Source of the DNA: Sinimarinibacterium sp. NLF-5-8 | Lineage (GTDB): Bacteria; Pseudomonadota; Gammaproteobacteria; Nevskiales; Nevskiaceae | Assembly (NCBI RefSeq): GCF_010092425.1 | Contig: NZ_CP048030.1 | Coordinates: 1,302,001-1,366,000 of the forward strand | Length of the DNA: 64,000 bases | Direction of reading: 5' to 3' | In this document: positions 18,637 through 64,000 of the stretch, piece after piece | Numbering within the stretch: position 1 is the stretch's first letter | Layout of the letters: every line of letters begins with the position of its first letter | Translations under genes and position numbers: made by a program | Notes under the pieces: model-generated | Seen by the model: the letters and a program-made list of their open reading frames with translations, nothing else | Databases searched by the model: none | Told to the model about the DNA's origin: nothing

Positions 18637-19794
18637 TCAGATACGCTCTAACACCGTGGCAACACCCTGCCCCATGCCAATGCACATGGTGGCGAGGCCA
18701 AACTGGCCATCCTTTTCTTTCATGATGTGTGCCAGTGCACCGGTGATGCGCGCGCCGGAACAGCCCAGCGGATGCCCTAACGAGATCGCGCCGCCTTTGA
18801 GGTTGATGCGATCCATGCGTTCGGTGAGCTTGAGGTCTTTGATCACCGCCAGCGATTGCGCGGCAAAGGCTTCGTTGAGCTCGATGTAGTCGATGTCGGC
18901 CACCGACAGACCCGCGCGCTTGAGCGCTTTTTGGCTGGAAGGCACCGGCCCCATGCCCATGATCGACGGGTTACAGCCCGCGGCGGCAACCGATTTGATC
19001 CGCGCCAATGGGGTGAGTCCCAGCGCTTTGGCCTTGGCTTCGTCCATCACCAGCACGCAGCTGGCGCCATCGGAAATGGCGGAGCTGTTACCGGCGGTGA
19101 CACTGCCTTTGGGGTTGAATGCCGGCCGCAGTTTGCCGAGGTCGGCCAGGTTGGCGTCAGGGCGTACCACTTCGTCAAAGTCCACCATGATCGGCGCGCC
19201 GTCGGCGTCGTGGCCGGCGATGGCGATCATTTCGTTTTTGAACTGGCCGTCTTTCCAGGCCTGGTAGGCTTTTTGGTGGGAGGCCAGCGCAAACTCGTCT
19301 TGTTGCTGACGGTTGATCTGGTGGGTTTGCGTGAGCATTTCTGCGGTCAAGCCCATCATCGCGGCGGCTTTGGCGGTGTTGACCGCCATGCCGGGATCGC
19401 CGTCGAAGCCGTGCGTCATGGGAACGTGCCCCATGTGCTCAACGCCGCCGCAGATGTAGGTATCGCCAATCCCGGCCTGGATCGAGGCGTAGGCGATGTG
19501 GATCGCGCTCATCGACGAACCACACAGGCGGTTGATGGTTTGGCCGGGCACGGTATTGGGCAAACCGGCCTTGAGCACGATGTTGCGCGCGATGTTGAAG
19601 CCTTGTTCCAGGGTTTGCTGCACGCAGCCCCAAACCACGTCCTCAACGTCGGCACCTTTGATGGCGTCGTTGCGCTTCAAGATGGCCTTGACCAGCTCGG
19701 CCGATAAATCTTCAGCGCGCACATTGCGAAATGCGCCGCCTCTGGAGCGCCCCATGGGGGTGCGTACCGCATCGACAATGACTACGTTTGTCAT
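18637..19794 (-). CDS. fadA: 3-ketoacyl-CoA thiolase
   Basis: Cleaves 3-ketoacyl-CoA to acetyl-CoA and a shortened acyl-CoA, the last step of beta-oxidation, as the beta subunit of the FadBA complex. The 385-residue product carries nucleophile Cys91 (NRLCGSS), His/Cys motifs in [10 protein letters not shown] and CIGMGQG, and the thiolase [11 protein letters not shown] region. It starts 46 bp after fadB stops, so it is in the same operon, and ends before a strong terminator. Confidence 0.97.
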
Positions 19795-19840: not shown

Positions 19841-21994
19841 TTACTGGGGGAAGTAGCGCTTGCCTTCGGCGGCCATTTGTTTCATCGACTCGGTCGGCTC
19901 GTAGAGCTTGCCCAGGTGCGCGTATTTGGCGGCTTTTTCAAGCACGGTTTTCAGGCCAACGGTGTCGGCGTACTTGAGCGCGCCGCCGCGAAATGGCGGA
20001 AAACCAATGCCGTAGAGCAAGCCCATATCGGCTTCGGTTGGCGTCTCGACAATGCCTTCGTCCAAGCAGCGCACGGTTTCGATGATCATCGGCAGCATTA
20101 AGCGATCAATGATTTCTTCTTCGCTGAACTCTTTTTGACCGTTGGGCTGGACTTCAGCCAGCAGCGCGTAGGTGTCGTCCGCGACTTCTTTTTTCGGCTT
20201 GCCTTTGGGGTCTACCGAGTATTTGAAGAAACCGATGCCGTTTTTCTGGCCATAACGCTTGGCTTCGTACATCACATCCAGCGCCGAACGAAACTCTTTG
20301 TTGGACATGCGATCGGGATAGCCCTCGGCCAGCACATCACCGACGTGGTGCGAGGTGTCGATGCCAACCACGTCTTGCAGATACGCCGGGCCCATCGGCC
20401 AGCCAAAGTTTTCCATCACCTTGTCTACGGCAACAAAATCAGCGCCGTCGCGGATCAGCTTGAGCCAGCCGCCAAAGTACGGGAACAAAATGCGGTTGAC
20501 CAAAAAGCCGGGGCAGTTTTTCACCACGATCGGTGTTTTACCCATGCTCGCGGCATAAGCGGCAACGGTGGCAATGGCCTCTTTTGAGGTCTTTTCGCCG
20601 TAGATCACTTCAACCAACGGCATTTTGTGCACAGGGTTGAAGAAGTGCATACCAAGGAAGTTTTCCGGCTTTTTCATCACCGTGGCCAGCTCGTCAATCG
20701 AGATGGACGAGGTGTTGGAGGCAATGATGGTGCCGTCTGCAACCACCGATTCGACCTCGGCCAGCACGCTTTTCTTGACCTTGGGGTTTTCAACCACGGC
20801 TTCAACCACGATGTTGACGTGGCCAAAATCGCCGTAGTTCAGCGTTGGGCGGATGGTGGAGAGGATGTGGCCGGCTTTTTCAGGCTTGAGTTTTTTGCGC
20901 TCCACCTGCTTGGACAGCAGCTTGTTGGCCTCATTCATGCCTAAGTCCAGCGCCTTGTCGGCGATGTCTTTCATGATGATCGGCGTGCCTTTGGAGGCGC
21001 TTTGATAAGCAATGCCGCCGCCCATGATGCCGGCGCCGAGAACCGCTGCCTGATCAACCTTCTTGCCGGCCTTGATGTAGCCCTTGGCTTTTTTCTTGAG
21101 GAATTGATCGTTCAGGAACAAGCCAATCAAGCTGTCTGCCACCGTGGTCTTGGCAACCTTGGCGATGGCCTGGCCTTCGATCTTGAGTGCTTCATCGCGC
21201 GCTTTGCCAGCCGCTTTTTGAATGGATTTGACCGCTTCCACCGGCGCCGGATAGTGCTTGCCCGCCTTGCCTTGGATAAACGGAATCGCGGTACCAAACA
21301 CCATCATCGACTCAATCGGATCGAGCTTGAGGGGGCCGGTTTTTTGCGCGCGGCGGGCTTTCCAGTCGTACTTGCCAGCAGCCGCGTCTTGCACCAGACG
21401 AATCGCCGCTTCCTTGAGTTTTTCGGGGGTGACCACCGCATCCACCGCGTGCACTTTGAGCGCCGCATCGGGTTTTTGCTGGGTAGCACCGGCGATCCAT
21501 TCAATCGCGTTATCCGCCCCGATCAAGCGCGGCAGCCGCACCGTGCCGCCAAAGCCGGGGATGATGCCGAGCTTGGTTTCCGGCAAGCCCACTTGCGCCG
21601 CCGTGGACATCACGCGGTAATCGGTGGACAACGCCATTTCAAAGCCGCCGCCGAGGGCAATCCCGTTGATTGCGGTGCAGCTGGGGAACGGCAAGTCTTC
21701 AATACTGCTGAAGATTTTGTTGGCCTCATACGCCCATTCGGCAATTTCGGCTTCTGTGCGCTGAAAGTTTTGACCAAATTCGGTGATGTCCGCACCAACG
21801 ATAAACACATCCTTGGCACTGGTCACGATCAAGCCGTTGACGCCGGAGGTCTTGGCAATGGCTTGTTGCGCTTGTTGCAGCTCCTGCACCGTGCGCGCGT
21901 CAAATTTATTGATCGCCTCACCCTGACGGTCAAAGCACAGCTCGGCAATGCCACCGTCCAGCAGGGTTACGCGAATCGACTGCCCTGTATACAT
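19841..21994 (-). CDS. fadB: Fatty acid oxidation complex alpha subunit (enoyl-CoA hydratase / 3-hydroxyacyl-CoA dehydrogenase)
   Basis: Multifunctional beta-oxidation enzyme of 717 residues. The N-terminal crotonase domain has Glu119 (GGGFEMA) and Glu139 (GLPETKLG), at the same numbering as E. coli. A Rossmann motif [13 protein letters not shown] near 315-330 opens the NAD-dependent hydroxyacyl-CoA dehydrogenase, with the catalytic His in [17 protein letters not shown] 21994 has GAGGTGA seven bases upstream; the open frame continues 17 codons further but with unrelated sequence. First gene of fadBA. A palindrome about 120 bp upstream may be the operator. Confidence 0.97.
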
Positions 21995-22116
21995 CGGTAA
22001 GTCACCTCGTCCATAAAAAAGCATTCGCGCCCGCCGGCCACACATCGCAGCACAACAGGCGCACCTTGTAAGTAAAACCGGGACATCTTAGACGCCTGCA
22101 CATATCAACGTAAACC

Positions 22117-22130
22117 AAACGGATGAGTTT
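22117..22130. promoter_or_regulatory. Possible fatty-acid repressor operator upstream of fadBA
   Basis: The 14-bp sequence AAACGGATGAGTTT has AAAC/GTTT half-sites around six bases, about 122 bp before the fadB start. PsrA-type TetR repressors of beta-oxidation genes bind CAAAC/GTTTG half-sites with a shorter spacer, so this is only a near match. The rest of the 522-bp gap between fadB and the divergent 11-mer-repeat gene holds a promoter for the latter and nothing else that I recognise. Confidence 0.25.
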
Positions 22131-22342
22131 TCGAAAGTCCGCGCATGCATTTCTGTTGTCGCAGCAAAGTCCCGTCTGGCGCAAGTTCAGACAGACCAAA
22201 CCCACTGCGCCTGACATCCTGCCCTCCAGATTCCGGTGACCTATCGTTGTCCATACAGATGGAAACGCGCGCGCAGCCGTTCGGGCGCACTCGCCAGCTG
22301 CCTTTGAGCACGCACGCAAACCGTTGTGATTTATTGATTTTC

Positions 22343-22372
22343 TTTACATTCAGACAAGGCCGAAGCTATACT
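22343..22372 (+). promoter_or_regulatory. Probable sigma-70 promoter of the 11-mer-repeat protein gene
   Basis: TTTACA (22343-22348) and TATACT (22367-22372) are 18 bp apart within an AT-rich patch. They lie about 145 bp before the preferred ATG at 22517, leaving a leader that includes a small CTTTT/AAAAG hairpin. Confidence 0.5.
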
Positions 22373-22516
22373 CCAATAACTCTTTTGGAGAAAAGTCAAG
22401 AGCTCACTGCAATATCCGCGATGCCTCGTGCAAAGCTCGGTATTCTGTCCTCAGTCGCCTGCACAGTGCGCTTTGAAGCTTTTGCACAGATTCTGATAGC
22501 CGGAGTGGCAATTTCA

Positions 22517-23275
22517 ATGAAACTGCTTTCAAAACAACCTTTTAGCAATATGCTTGATAAAGTCGTAAAAACTGCGGCCAATCTGACCGGCAGCGCCCGC
22601 AGCCCCGCCGCAGCAAAAGATGGCAAACAACCTGCCGCCGAAAAGCGCGCTCCAAAAGCGCGTGAAGCCGTCAGCAACGCCACCAAAACGGCACAAAAAA
22701 CGGTCAGTGCCGCACAAGAAAGTGTTAAAAAAGACCTCGAAAAAGTCCGCAGCGCCGTAGACAAGGTCAAAAATCAAGCCAAGGCCGAAGTCGAAAAACT
22801 CCGGGCTGATTCGCACAAGGTCACCAGCAAAACCCGCAAGCGCGTCAAGGATGCCGAAGATCAGGTCAAGAAACTGGGGGACGATGCGAAAAAGACCGCA
22901 CAAAAAGTCACCGCCGAGGTAAAGTCGGAAGCGCAAAAACTACAGACCCAGACCCGCGCACAGGTCAAAAAGCTGCAAGCGGATGCCAAAAAAACTGCGC
23001 AGGACACCGCCACCAAGGTCAAGGCAGGGGTCAAGGCCGAAACCGAAAAAGTCCAGGCGCGCGTTAAACAAGCCGAAACCCAGGTCAAAAAAATTCAAAG
23101 CAGCGCCAAGAAAACCGCGCGCAAGATGGAAAAGCGTGCCGCCGAAATGGCGGCTGCAGTGCAGGCGATCACCCCAACGCCGCTGTCGCGCGCGTTTTTG
23201 GCCACCTCGCGCGGACGCAAACTGGCCGCCGAGCGCGCCGCTGAGGCTGAGGCGCAAAACGCGGGCAACGCGTAA
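22517..23275 (+). CDS. Basic amphipathic-helix protein of about thirteen 11-residue repeats (LEA/phasin-like), unknown function
   Basis: The 252-residue product is rich in Lys, Ala, Gln and Glu and has no aromatic residue after the N-terminus. Residues 70-212 divide without gaps into thirteen 11-mers, for example KKTAQKVTAEV, KSEAQKLQTQT, RAQVKKLQADA, KKTAQDTATKV and QARVKQAETQV. A small hydrophobic residue recurs at position 4, often also at 8 and 11. Such 11/3 helices occur in group 3 LEA proteins, perilipins, synuclein and apolipoproteins, and bind lipid surfaces or protect dried cells. The N-terminal 20 residues form a short amphipathic helix. ATG 22517 has GGAG upstream; an in-frame ATG at 22421 is possible but has no ribosome site. 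The gene is divergent from fadBA. Alternatives are a phasin-like or histone-H1-like protein. Confidence 0.7.
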   Translation: MKLLSKQPFSNMLDKVVKTAANLTGSARSPAAAKDGKQPAAEKRAPKAREAVSNATKTAQKTVSAAQESVKKDLEKVRSAVDKVKNQAKAEVEKLRADSHKVTSKTRKRVKDAEDQVKKLGDDAKKTAQKVTAEVKSEAQKLQTQTRAQVKKLQADAKKTAQDTATKVKAGVKAETEKVQARVKQAETQVKKIQSSAKKTARKMEKRAAEMAAAVQAITPTPLSRAFLATSRGRKLAAERAAEAEAQNAGNA

Positions 23276-23357: not shown

Positions 23358-24287
23358 ATGACGCTGACCCTGACCCAAAGCACTGCGCTGTACAGCGTGC
23401 TGGCCGATGCCAGCCGCCTGCGCCTGCTGCACCTGTTGGAACACTTTGAGCTGAGCGTTGCCGAGCTCACCGAAATCACCGATCTGGCACAAAGCCGCGT
23501 CTCGACCCATCTGGCGCGGCTCAAGCGCGCGCATCTGGTGCAAGACAAGCGCAGTGGCAACGCTGCGCTGTATTCGCTCAACCCCGACAACACCCAGGCG
23601 CGCGAAGTGTGGCAATTGCTCGGCACGCGTCTGGACGATGCCCAACTGCGGATGGATCGTGAACGCGCCGTGCAGGTCATCAACAACCGCAAACACGGCC
23701 AGACCTGGGCCGAATCGGTTGCCGGGCGAATGGAGCTGCATTACTCGCCGGGGCGCACCTGGGAGGCCACCGCGCGCGCGCTGATGCCCCTGCTGGCATT
23801 GGGTGATGTCGTCGATATTGCCTGCGGCGATGGGGTACTGGCCGAACTGCTGGCCGAGCACGCGCACAGTGTCACTGGCGTGGATATCAGTGCCACCGTC
23901 ACTGCAGCGGCACGCAAACGCCTGAGCCGACTCAAAAACGTGCGCTTCGTGCAGGCCGACATGCATGATCTGCCGTTGCCGCAGGCGCAGTTTGATCAGG
24001 TATTCCTGATGCACGCACTGTCATACACCCAAGCCCCGCAGACCGTGTTGCAACAGGCGGCCAGGCTGCTGCGTCCCGGCGGTCATCTGGTGGTGGCCGC
24101 GCTGGGCGCACATGCGCATGCCGAAACCATGCGCGCCTACGATCACCTCAACCTTGGCCTGACACCCGAGCAACTGCGCACGCTGCTGGAACGATGCGGC
24201 TTACAGGTCGGGCACTGCCGCATCAGTTCACGCGAACAGCGTCCGCCCTACTTTGAAGTCATCACGGCGCTGGCACGCCAACCCTAG
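23358..24287 (+). CDS. ArsR-type HTH regulator fused to a SAM methyltransferase
   Basis: A 309-residue two-domain protein. Residues 1-90 form a winged-helix ArsR domain (LADASRLRLLHLLE, AQSRVSTHLARLKRAHLV). Residues 130-300 are a class I methyltransferase with motif I VVDIACGDGV (151-160), VTGVDIS after strand 2 and LLRPGGHLVV. Proteins of this layout are annotated as metalloregulator/methyltransferase fusions and often lie near methionine or methyl-cycle genes, but none is adjacent here. No cysteine metal site typical of ArsR (CxC) is visible in the HTH. Its stop overlaps that of dnaQ tail to tail by 4 bp. Confidence 0.85.
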   Translation: MTLTLTQSTALYSVLADASRLRLLHLLEHFELSVAELTEITDLAQSRVSTHLARLKRAHLVQDKRSGNAALYSLNPDNTQAREVWQLLGTRLDDAQLRMDRERAVQVINNRKHGQTWAESVAGRMELHYSPGRTWEATARALMPLLALGDVVDIACGDGVLAELLAEHAHSVTGVDISATVTAAARKRLSRLKNVRFVQADMHDLPLPQAQFDQVFLMHALSYTQAPQTVLQQAARLLRPGGHLVVAALGAHAHAETMRAYDHLNLGLTPEQLRTLLERCGLQVGHCRISSREQRPPYFEVITALARQP

Positions 24288-61893: not shown

Positions 61894-64000
61894 TTAGGTT
61901 TCCTGCTCGGTGACCAGATCCACGGCTTGCTGAATATCCACACTGACCAGTCTCGATACGCCTGGCTCCTGCATGGTGACACCGTGTAATTGCTGCGCCA
62001 ACTCCATGGTGATTTTGTTGTGCGTGATGATAATGAATTGAACGTTATGAGACATTTCACGAACGATCTCACAAAAACGCCCGACGTTGGCATCATCCAG
62101 TGGCGCGTCCACCTCATCCATGAGGCAAAACGGCGCGGGATTGAGTTGAAACAAGGCTAACAGCAGCGCCACGGCGGTCATCGCTTTTTCACCGCCGGAG
62201 AGCAGGTGAATGGTGGAGTTGCGCTTGCCCGGAGGCCGCGCCATCACCCGCACGCCAGCGTCGAGCAGGTTTTCGCCGGTGAGTTCCAGATACGCCTCGC
62301 CACCGCCAAAGAGTTTGGGGAAGCGATCCTTGAAAACGTCGTTGACTTTGTCAAAGGTGACTTTGAACATCTCGCGGGTTTCGGCGTCGATCTTGCGAAT
62401 CGCTTCTTCCAGCACTTCGAGTGCGCCATGCAGATCGGCGTGTTGTTCAGTCAAATACGTATCGCGTGCGCGCGCTTCGGTGAGTTCGTCGATGGCGGCC
62501 AGATTGATTGCGCCCAGACGCTCGATGCGGCGGCTGACCACCCCCAGACGATCTTCCCAGTTGGCCAGGGTGGCGTCGGCGGCGAGGTTTTCAAACAAGT
62601 GCGCGCGGTCAAAGCCGGTTTCGCTGATTTGCTCATCCAGACTTTGCCGGTGCGCGCGCAGGTTTTCGTACTCGATGCGCGCGCCTTGCAGTTGCTCTTG
62701 CGCCAGGTCTTTGTGCTGATCGGCGGCGTGGGCGGTGTGCAGGGTTTGCTGCAACACGCGCTCGGCGGCTTCGACTTCTTCGCGCACCGCGCGCAGGGTT
62801 TGGCGCGCGCTGTCCACCGCTTGACGGGCGCTTTCAACATCCTCGGCCTGATGTTCCAGCGGCTCGGCCAACTCCAGCGCATTGTGCTGTTCTTCATCCA
62901 GACGAATTTGCAGCGCCTCATGGCGCTCGGCCAGCTCAGCCAGCGCGCGCTCGATGCCGCTGACACTGCTGCTGCGACCGGCCAGTTGCACCTGCACCTG
63001 GCCGCGCGCCTGGGCCACCTGGCTGGCGCTGTGACGCAGGCGGCTGACCGCATCGCGCTTTTGTTGCAGCACCTGCTGCATCTGCGCGCGCTTTTGGCGT
63101 AAATCCTGGGCGGCGCTTTCCAGTGCCAGCAGGCGCGCGCGCACGTCGTGCAGTTCTTCGCTTTGTTGTTCGTAGCTGATGGCCAGCGTTTCGATTTCGT
63201 CGGACAGGGCTTGCGCGCGCTGCTGGGTTTGCTCCAGTCGCACTTGCTGGGCCTGACGAAAGGCGAGTTTTTGCGCCTGACGATGGCGCAGTTGGTCAAA
63301 GTGGGCGCTGCGTTCGCGGCGCTGCTGTTCGGCGCTGTGAATCTGCGCGCGCAGGGCGCCGAGTTCGGCTTCCAGATCCAGCACTTGCTGCTGCTGATCC
63401 TGCACTTGCTGTTTGAGCTCGCGCAGCAGTTGGGTGCGGGCGATGACGCCGCCGCTGCCCTGCCCTTGTTGCGGGTGGCGCTGAAACTGCGCGCCCAGCC
63501 ATTGCCCTTGCGCGGTGATGATGGATTCATGCGCAGCCAAATCCGGCAGGCGCGCGCGCGCCTCATCCAGATCGGACGCGGTTTGAATCCCGTGCAACAG
63601 CGCAACAATCGCGGCCGGACCGCTGACCTTGCTGGCCAGCCCGTGCTCACCGCGCGCGCGCGCGGCGGCCAGAACGCTGATACCGGCCTTGGGCGGATCC
63701 GTGATCGCGCGCGCGCTGTAGTCGTCCAAAACCGGAGCTTGCAGCCAGCCGACAAGGGCTTGTTCAACGGCGGTTTCCCAGCCGGGTTCGACTTGCAGCA
63801 CGCTGGCCAGACGCGGCGCGGTGTCCATCGCCTGCTGCCTGAGCCAGCCGTTGAGCTCGGCATCGTCTTGCTTGAGCGCGGCTTGTTGCAGGGTTTCAAG
63901 AGAGGCGACGCGACCGCGCGCGGCTTGCAGTTGCTCGCGGGTCTGGTGCAGGTCGGCTTCCAGGACGCTGCGCCGGTCGCGCTGGCTGTGCAGAGCCTCA
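61894..64000 (-). CDS. smc: Chromosome partition protein Smc, C-terminal portion
   Basis: ATPase that compacts and resolves chromosomes together with ScpA and ScpB. The gene runs off the right edge; about 702 codons are seen. They include the hinge (PRLASVLQVEPGWETAVEQAL onward), a long coiled coil rich in Gln, Ala and Arg, the signature LSGGEKAMTAVALLLALF, the Walker B FCLMDEVDAPLDD, and the H-loop IIITHNK. The N-terminal Walker A part is outside the window. Followed closely by zipA and ligA. Confidence 0.97.
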   Translation of the reverse strand, partial: EALHSQRDRRSVLEADLHQTREQLQAARGRVASLETLQQAALKQDDAELNGWLRQQAMDTAPRLASVLQVEPGWETAVEQALVGWLQAPVLDDYSARAITDPPKAGISVLAAARARGEHGLASKVSGPAAIVALLHGIQTASDLDEARARLPDLAAHESIITAQGQWLGAQFQRHPQQGQGSGGVIARTQLLRELKQQVQDQQQQVLDLEAELGALRAQIHSAEQQRRERSAHFDQLRHRQAQKLAFRQAQQVRLEQTQQRAQALSDEIETLAISYEQQSEELHDVRARLLALESAAQDLRQKRAQMQQVLQQKRDAVSRLRHSASQVAQARGQVQVQLAGRSSSVSGIERALAELAERHEALQIRLDEEQHNALELAEPLEHQAEDVESARQAVDSARQTLRAVREEVEAAERVLQQTLHTAHAADQHKDLAQEQLQGARIEYENLRAHRQSLDEQISETGFDRAHLFENLAADATLANWEDRLGVVSRRIERLGAINLAAIDELTEARARDTYLTEQHADLHGALEVLEEAIRKIDAETREMFKVTFDKVNDVFKDRFPKLFGGGEAYLELTGENLLDAGVRVMARPPGKRNSTIHLLSGGEKAMTAVALLLALFQLNPAPFCLMDEVDAPLDDANVGRFCEIVREMSHNVQFIIITHNKITMELAQQLHGVTMQEPGVSRLVSVDIQQAVDLVTEQET

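Follow-up and report, generated by a model that had tools for sequence, protein, structure and literature searches.

In the 64,000-nucleotide stretch of the Sinimarinibacterium sp. NLF-5-8 chromosome that we analyzed (the window), a gene divergent from fadB encodes a lysine-rich, predicted helical protein that we read, with a probability of roughly 0.5, as a granule-associated member of a phasin lineage that coats storage-lipid inclusions in the manner of perilipin-4. Under this reading, an ancestral protein would have had three parts, a Phasin_2 domain, an 11/3-type amphipathic helix of cationic character and, at its C-terminus, an SRAxxATSxxK box, and the lineage of the Solimonas/Sinimarinibacterium group would have lost the phasin domain and been left with the helix and the box. 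The helix of about 170 residues, with a V/A/L face nearly free of K/R and no aromatic residues, would take up its fold on wax-ester/triacylglycerol inclusions, coating their surface through many weak contacts. Its lysine-rich side would meet anionic phospholipid and perhaps the nucleoid, and may tether inclusions to DNA. The features of the locus are as follows.

18637-19794, minus strand: fadA-like thiolase, the open reading frame beyond fadB (presumed name)
19841-21994, minus strand: fadB (presumed name), 717 residues, the divergent conserved neighbor
22343-22372, plus strand: sigma-70-like promoter TTTACA-18-TATACT, from an intergenic alignment of 13 genomes and a consensus search
22382-22402, plus strand: leader element CTTTTGGAGAAAAGTCAAGAG, a degenerate copy of the element found in related domain-less genomes
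22517-23275, plus strand: the focal gene, for a putative phasin-lineage protein without a phasin domain and with a cationic amphipathic helix (252 residues; K+R 59, D+E 28)
22541-22582, plus strand: short N-terminal helix, residues 9-22, predicted by AlphaFold2 with low confidence (ten-residue pLDDT means 45-56)
22649-23170, plus strand: predicted long amphipathic 11/3-type helix, residues 45-218 with a break at 100-103, from Fourier analysis, shuffles and AlphaFold2; includes the 11-mers of residues 70-212
23168-23233, plus strand: C-terminal box ITPTPLSRAFLATSRGRKLAAE, residues 218-239, from alignments; the region where the domain-less proteins are best conserved
23358-24287, plus strand: ArsR-type regulator fused to a SAM methyltransferase (presumed name), the downstream neighbor

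Periodicity and predicted structure

The ATG start codon of the focal gene is preceded by GGAG, and the encoded protein has a net charge of +31. The first-pass annotation divided residues 70-212 into thirteen gapless 11-residue repeats, and these are present in the translation. Position modulo 11 explained 0.29 of the hydropathy variance of this range, compared with 0.069 ± 0.029 in 500 shuffles (z 7.5); a heptad fit of the same residues reached z 1.6. Fourier analysis confirmed a hydrophobic periodicity beyond that of shuffled sequences, although the peak was at 99.0 degrees and not exactly at 98.2. The same value was obtained for residues 45-215 and 70-212 on both hydropathy scales, with 0 of 1000 shuffles matching it for either range on either scale, and it falls between the angles of an 11/3 (98.2 degrees) and an 18/5 (100 degrees) helix. 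When the half ranges 70-140 and 140-212 were taken separately, the fraction of shuffles reaching the peak was 0.000 to 0.009. Neither range peaked near 103 degrees as a heptad coiled coil would: power at that angle was 3.6 (residues 45-215) and 22.7 (residues 70-212) versus 254 and 212 at the peak. Identity lags in the protein were 7, 11, 18, 25, 33, 40 and 58; because 11-residue steps are thus mixed with 7-residue steps, the strict 13 × 11 parse is an idealization.

Among the 105 six-frame open reading frames of at least 150 residues in the window, the focal frame had the strongest periodicity when all angles between 60 and 150 degrees were compared. The frames that ranked second and third, 62206-63099 (plus strand) and 61897-63828 (minus strand), both peaked at 103 degrees (heptad). 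Since these two share DNA on opposite strands, no more than one of them is likely to be a real gene.

AlphaFold2, supplied with a 14-sequence alignment, predicted helices at residues 9-22, 45-99, 104-218 and 222-244 (mean pLDDT 70.5, pTM 0.34), those at 45-99 and 104-218 with moderate confidence. With residues 45-215 placed on a wheel at 99 degrees per residue, the sectors between -60 and +60 degrees take in 25 of the 27 V/I/L/M/F residues, 17 of 32 alanines and 1 of 45 K/R. The phase of the wheel was fitted to the data, and shuffles fitted likewise leave 18% of K/R in the face versus 2% here. This range contains a single proline, 22 acidic and 45 basic residues, and its apolar face is chiefly V and A; the 171 residues include only five L and a single I. 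As a mode of helix rather than as a family, it resembles perilipin in its length, its peak near 98-100 degrees, its weakly hydrophobic face and its lack of aromatics. Nothing in the PDB came under E 0.05 in a Foldseek search; Vipp1/PspA headed the rows, with E values of 0.056 or higher.

No Pfam or NCBIfam model was matched over its cut-off by the focal protein, including the LEA_4, Phasin and Apolipoprotein profiles proposed earlier as a check. The Apolipoprotein match (E 0.023) was far under the Pfam cut-off, and neither LEA_4 nor Phasin was among the matches listed at E up to 1, a range in which the filters remove most matches above 0.1. The protein also fell outside Phasin_2 (PF09361), Perilipin (PF03036; E 0.035, 13.6 bits versus a cut-off of 33) and the PhaF/AlgP family PF05597, which was not found over cut-off in any of 37 genomes. 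Weak matches to SMC/Rad50-type profiles were seen as well, and these, like the weak Apolipoprotein and Perilipin matches, probably reflect periodicity and composition. A genome scan using the focal protein alone found no relative.

The fadB locus and its two gene types

As had been claimed, the focal gene (plus strand) diverges from fadB and fadA (both minus strand), gene names that follow the first-pass annotation and a presumed similarity. A protein search gave matches in 15 of 61 genomes including the source genome, and in all 14 relatives the gene was divergent from fadB. We sought FadB in 37 genomes and added G032; 36 genomes were readable at the locus, with G014 (contig too short upstream of fadB) and G016 (no close FadB) left out. 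A gene of the same kind was divergent from fadB in 36/36 readable genomes of the order, which answers the earlier suggestion to survey whether this neighbor is conserved. Most of these genes (31, source included) encode more than 12% lysine. Four genes of family f6 (G041, G044, G047 and G050) fell under this filter and were recovered via their Phasin_2 domain, and G022 was seen only as a C-terminal part that includes the box. Eleven named loci from an alignment scan were genomes already counted and add no cases.

The syntenic genes are of two types. Nineteen of the 36 encode Phasin_2 over cut-off, and 17 do not (G000-G011, G013, G017, G021, G022 and G032, where G000 is the source genome). Named records of the domain-less type come from Solimonas, Sinimarinibacterium, Fontimonas, Stenotrophobium and two metagenome bins; Sinimarinibacterium belongs to the Nevskiaceae within the Nevskiales. 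The G008 protein was used with an untrimmed start, and its 5' end appears frame-shifted relative to G007. Both types have features in common, which we counted in 31 proteins, G022 and the four f6 proteins standing outside these counts. The C-terminal box, SR[AV]xx(x)AT[ST]xx[KR], was present in 16/16 domain-less and 11/15 phasin-type proteins (absent from G015, G018, G037 and G040); the pattern was written after the sequences were seen, and its frequency in shuffles was at most 0.0035. Among the f6 proteins, G050 showed no such box at its end.

A hydropathy peak at 97-101 degrees with p ≤0.01 was found in 13/16 domain-less and 10/15 phasin-type proteins. This strict test was failed by the domain-less G017 (p 0.013), G013 and G011 and by the phasin-type G018, G037 (no proline-free stretch of 34), G019, G046 and G038. 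In some orthologues, the amphipathic tail gives way to AAKKP pentads (G037 and G046) or to a tail of AKSTA-like type (G038), with positive charge as the one common feature. With the helix kept in 23/31 tested proteins, the earlier reading of an 11/3-type amphipathic helix is strengthened. An AlphaFold2 model of the phasin-type G012 protein was all-helical with low confidence (mean pLDDT 60.3) and was left unused.

Because the helix is of low complexity, the claim that these proteins form one family rests on synteny, the promoter and the short box. The focal gene belongs with this fadB-linked phasin/tail group in being divergent from fadB, rich in lysine and equipped with the C-terminal box, and the combination of synteny, common helix and common box makes it look like a phasin-type granule protein without its phasin domain, a lineage that the first reading of the locus had missed. 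A class-wide search with the box retrieved 3 of 274 genomes: the source, one of the same order, and one 14-residue match in a 50-residue frame that is probably due to chance. This search missed G041 of the same order and so is no measure of the spread of the gene.

On a FadB tree, the two states require at least six changes, four of them forced by well supported branches. The phasin type occupies all 13 rows of families f2, f3, f4 and f6 and the sole f5 row, which makes loss within family f1 likelier than gain. From these sequence comparisons, the phasin type is probably ancestral and its domain was probably lost within f1, transfer being a further possibility.

The promoter of relatives is mostly TTGACA-17/18-TACACT. 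A similar promoter, with at most three mismatches to the consensus, was present in 29/31 intergenic regions of both types (a count with no shuffle control) and missing in G011 and G018; its conservation is plain to see where 13 of the regions are aligned. Just after it, the 13 aligned domain-less genomes have a palindromic element, CTTTTyGGGGGAAAAGTCAAGGGGAG, degenerate in some of them, the window included. ATGGC often comes next, and the stretch looks like the place where a phasin-type gene has its ribosome-binding site and start. From the beginning of the -35 hexamer to the start codon there are 64-135 bases in phasin-type genomes with a good promoter match, versus 280-395 in 12 domain-less genomes, 226 in G013 and 174 here. 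We would guess that the long leader of domain-less genes is former phasin-coding DNA; by eye, no residual phasin similarity was noticed in the leaders. A candidate leader reading frame that follows the conserved ribosome-binding site and ATGGC in 10 domain-less genomes is not claimed: it reads nearly to the main start in 9 of the 10 (rows that are related to one another), and in each of the ten, taken singly, it was within chance (P 0.12-0.84).

Rfam gave nothing for 21900-22700 at E up to 1, and a presumed PsrA-type operator pattern was absent from all 31 intergenic regions. A motif of the downstream gene, which we take to be an ArsR-type regulator/methyltransferase, lies after the gene and on the same strand in 25/34 relative loci.

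Proposed inclusion coat and alternative roles

Storage-lipid synthase (WS/DGAT) genes were found in 37/37 genomes, with three copies in the source genome, and in none of 14 control genomes. Because every sampled genome has them, their co-occurrence with the gene carries no variance. The first-pass annotation proposed a coat for storage lipid or polyester granules. The coat reading gained from Phasin_2 in 19/36 syntenic genes, the helix in 23/31 tested proteins, WS/DGAT in 37/37 genomes and fadB in 36/36, and a polyester-only role became unlikely; a neutral-lipid inclusion is the likelier surface than polyhydroxyalkanoate (PHA). A more elaborate version is tentative and somewhat doubtful: that a free-standing cationic 11/3 helix forms the coat of wax-ester/triacylglycerol droplets and also anchors these to the chromosome, as a bacterial counterpart of perilipin-4, that the phasin domain was stripped several times independently, and that expression is linked to beta-oxidation through the fadB intergenic region.

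The positive charge of the protein keeps a nucleoid reading alive and makes nucleoid binding, as in PhaF, AlgP and MLDS, a serious part of the proposed role or a rival to it. As a rival, the protein would be a histone H1-like (AlgP-like) nucleoid protein whose cationic helix binds DNA instead of touching lipid and may also space granules, of polyphosphate or another kind. We regard this as rather unlikely. The net charges (+31 here and, for the 15 further domain-less proteins whose charge was computed, +36 to +64) would suit it, as would AAKKP-type tails in some orthologues and matches to HC2 in 5/32 and to H1-like NF038053 in 4/32 family members, two of the HC2 scores being under cut-off. AlgP and PhaF offer a precedent (PMC9239181, PMC3574117). 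However, the focal protein itself has no HC2 or NF038053 match and lies outside the HC2 family, and its helix pairs 22 acidic with 45 basic residues and has one proline. DNA binding would also not need a face nearly free of K/R over 171 residues, and the AKSTA/AAKKP tails (G038) lack the 98-degree moment.

Periodicity at 99 degrees also suits hendecad coiled coils, and the protein could be a soluble right-handed coiled-coil rod or oligomer that acts as a scaffold and not as a lipid binder. The long predicted helices and the weak SMC/Rad50-type matches would fit such a rod, but a face mostly of V and A, with its few L and I residues, would make a weak core, and we consider this unlikely.

Another reading is a strict phasin, one of PHA granules, and on this the distribution of polyester synthases bears. 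Strong PhaC_N matches (E under 1e-50) were present in 14/37 genomes, comprising 9/19 phasin-type versus 5/16 domain-less genomes searched; the presence of PhaC thus does not follow that of the phasin domain. Seven of 11 same-genus genomes, source counted, keep the gene and have neither PhaC_N nor a strong class III (TIGR01836) match (G001, G003 and G006-G010), which is what makes a polyester-only role unlikely. Three of the seven have weak partial TIGR01836 matches (E 9e-5 to 7e-4), and most are draft assemblies of 98-100% completeness.

The source genome encodes two PhaC-like alpha/beta hydrolases (G000:C1:2085326-2086255 and 2344950-2345945); the lipase-box position reads GYCMGG in one of them and GWSFG in the other. 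It also encodes an unlinked Phasin_2 protein (G000:C1:1667930-1668193; L097 1787-2341, minus strand; open reading frame of 184 residues), whose gene adjoins what we take to be a dihydrouridine-synthase-like gene and a YihY-like membrane protein gene. With these proteins, PHA may still occur in this organism. The GYCMGG protein, the unlinked Phasin_2 protein and the Phasin_2 orthologues speak for a strict phasin, but the PhaC-like proteins score 165 and 166.5 bits, far under the class III cut-off of 365, and the seven same-genus genomes keep the gene, making this reading quite improbable. A LEA-like desiccation protectant, also offered in the first-pass annotation, found no support and is hardly plausible: the protein is similar to group 3 LEA proteins in being hydrophilic and in its 11-mer periodicity, but it had no LEA_4 match among those listed at E up to 1 and has a probable phasin lineage and fad synteny.

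To our knowledge, the surface proteins of wax-ester/triacylglycerol inclusions in Gram-negative bacteria are poorly known, and as a putative storage-lipid coat the family provides a candidate that can be tested, in a conserved position next to fadB. Its natural variants, which differ in whether they have the phasin domain and in whether the tail is helical or of AAKKP type, could separate the contributions of domain, helix and charge. We found no description of a fadB-divergent phasin/tail gene family in the titles and abstract openings of the open-licence papers listed, which is weak evidence of absence, and nothing there on Solimonadaceae and lipid droplets.

Comparison with known systems

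The closest likeness by locus is to the Phasin_2 proteins (PF09361/TIGR01841): the focal gene occupies the same place as 19 domain-bearing genes, has a similar promoter, and has the tail and box common to most of those tested. It differs from them in that the domain is missing. HC2 and NF038053 match the K/A-rich tails of some orthologues but not the focal protein.

PhaF and AlgP of Pseudomonas are granule-associated, and their KPAA-type tails are thought to bind DNA (PMC3574117, PMC9239181). They are alike in granule association, which for our protein is putative, and in a lysine-rich C-terminal part. However, their KPAA-type tail is disordered, whereas the focal protein has a proline-poor, predicted amphipathic helix. 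MLDS of Rhodococcus jostii is a major lipid-droplet protein whose lysine-rich C-terminus binds DNA (PMC5504291). It differs in being actinobacterial and in having an apolipoprotein-like motif and a PAKKA tail.

Perilipin 4 (Plin4) coats triglyceride droplets with a giant 11-mer helix of hydrophobic fraction 0.35, aromatic fraction 0.002, charged fraction 0.15 and moment 0.257 (PMC5889406). The corresponding values for the focal helix are 0.35, 0, 0.39 and 0.33, from windows and a method that differ from those used for Plin4. Both helices are long, weakly hydrophobic and nearly without aromatics, whereas Plin4 is eukaryotic, rich in T/G/V and less charged. The likeness is one of analogy, and the higher charge of the focal helix counts against an inclusion coat of this kind. 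Overall, by analogy with these systems, the protein looks like a mixture of a perilipin-like helix and PhaF-like charge, and if the coat reading is true, this family and the perilipins would have converged on an 11-mer helix of weak hydrophobicity.
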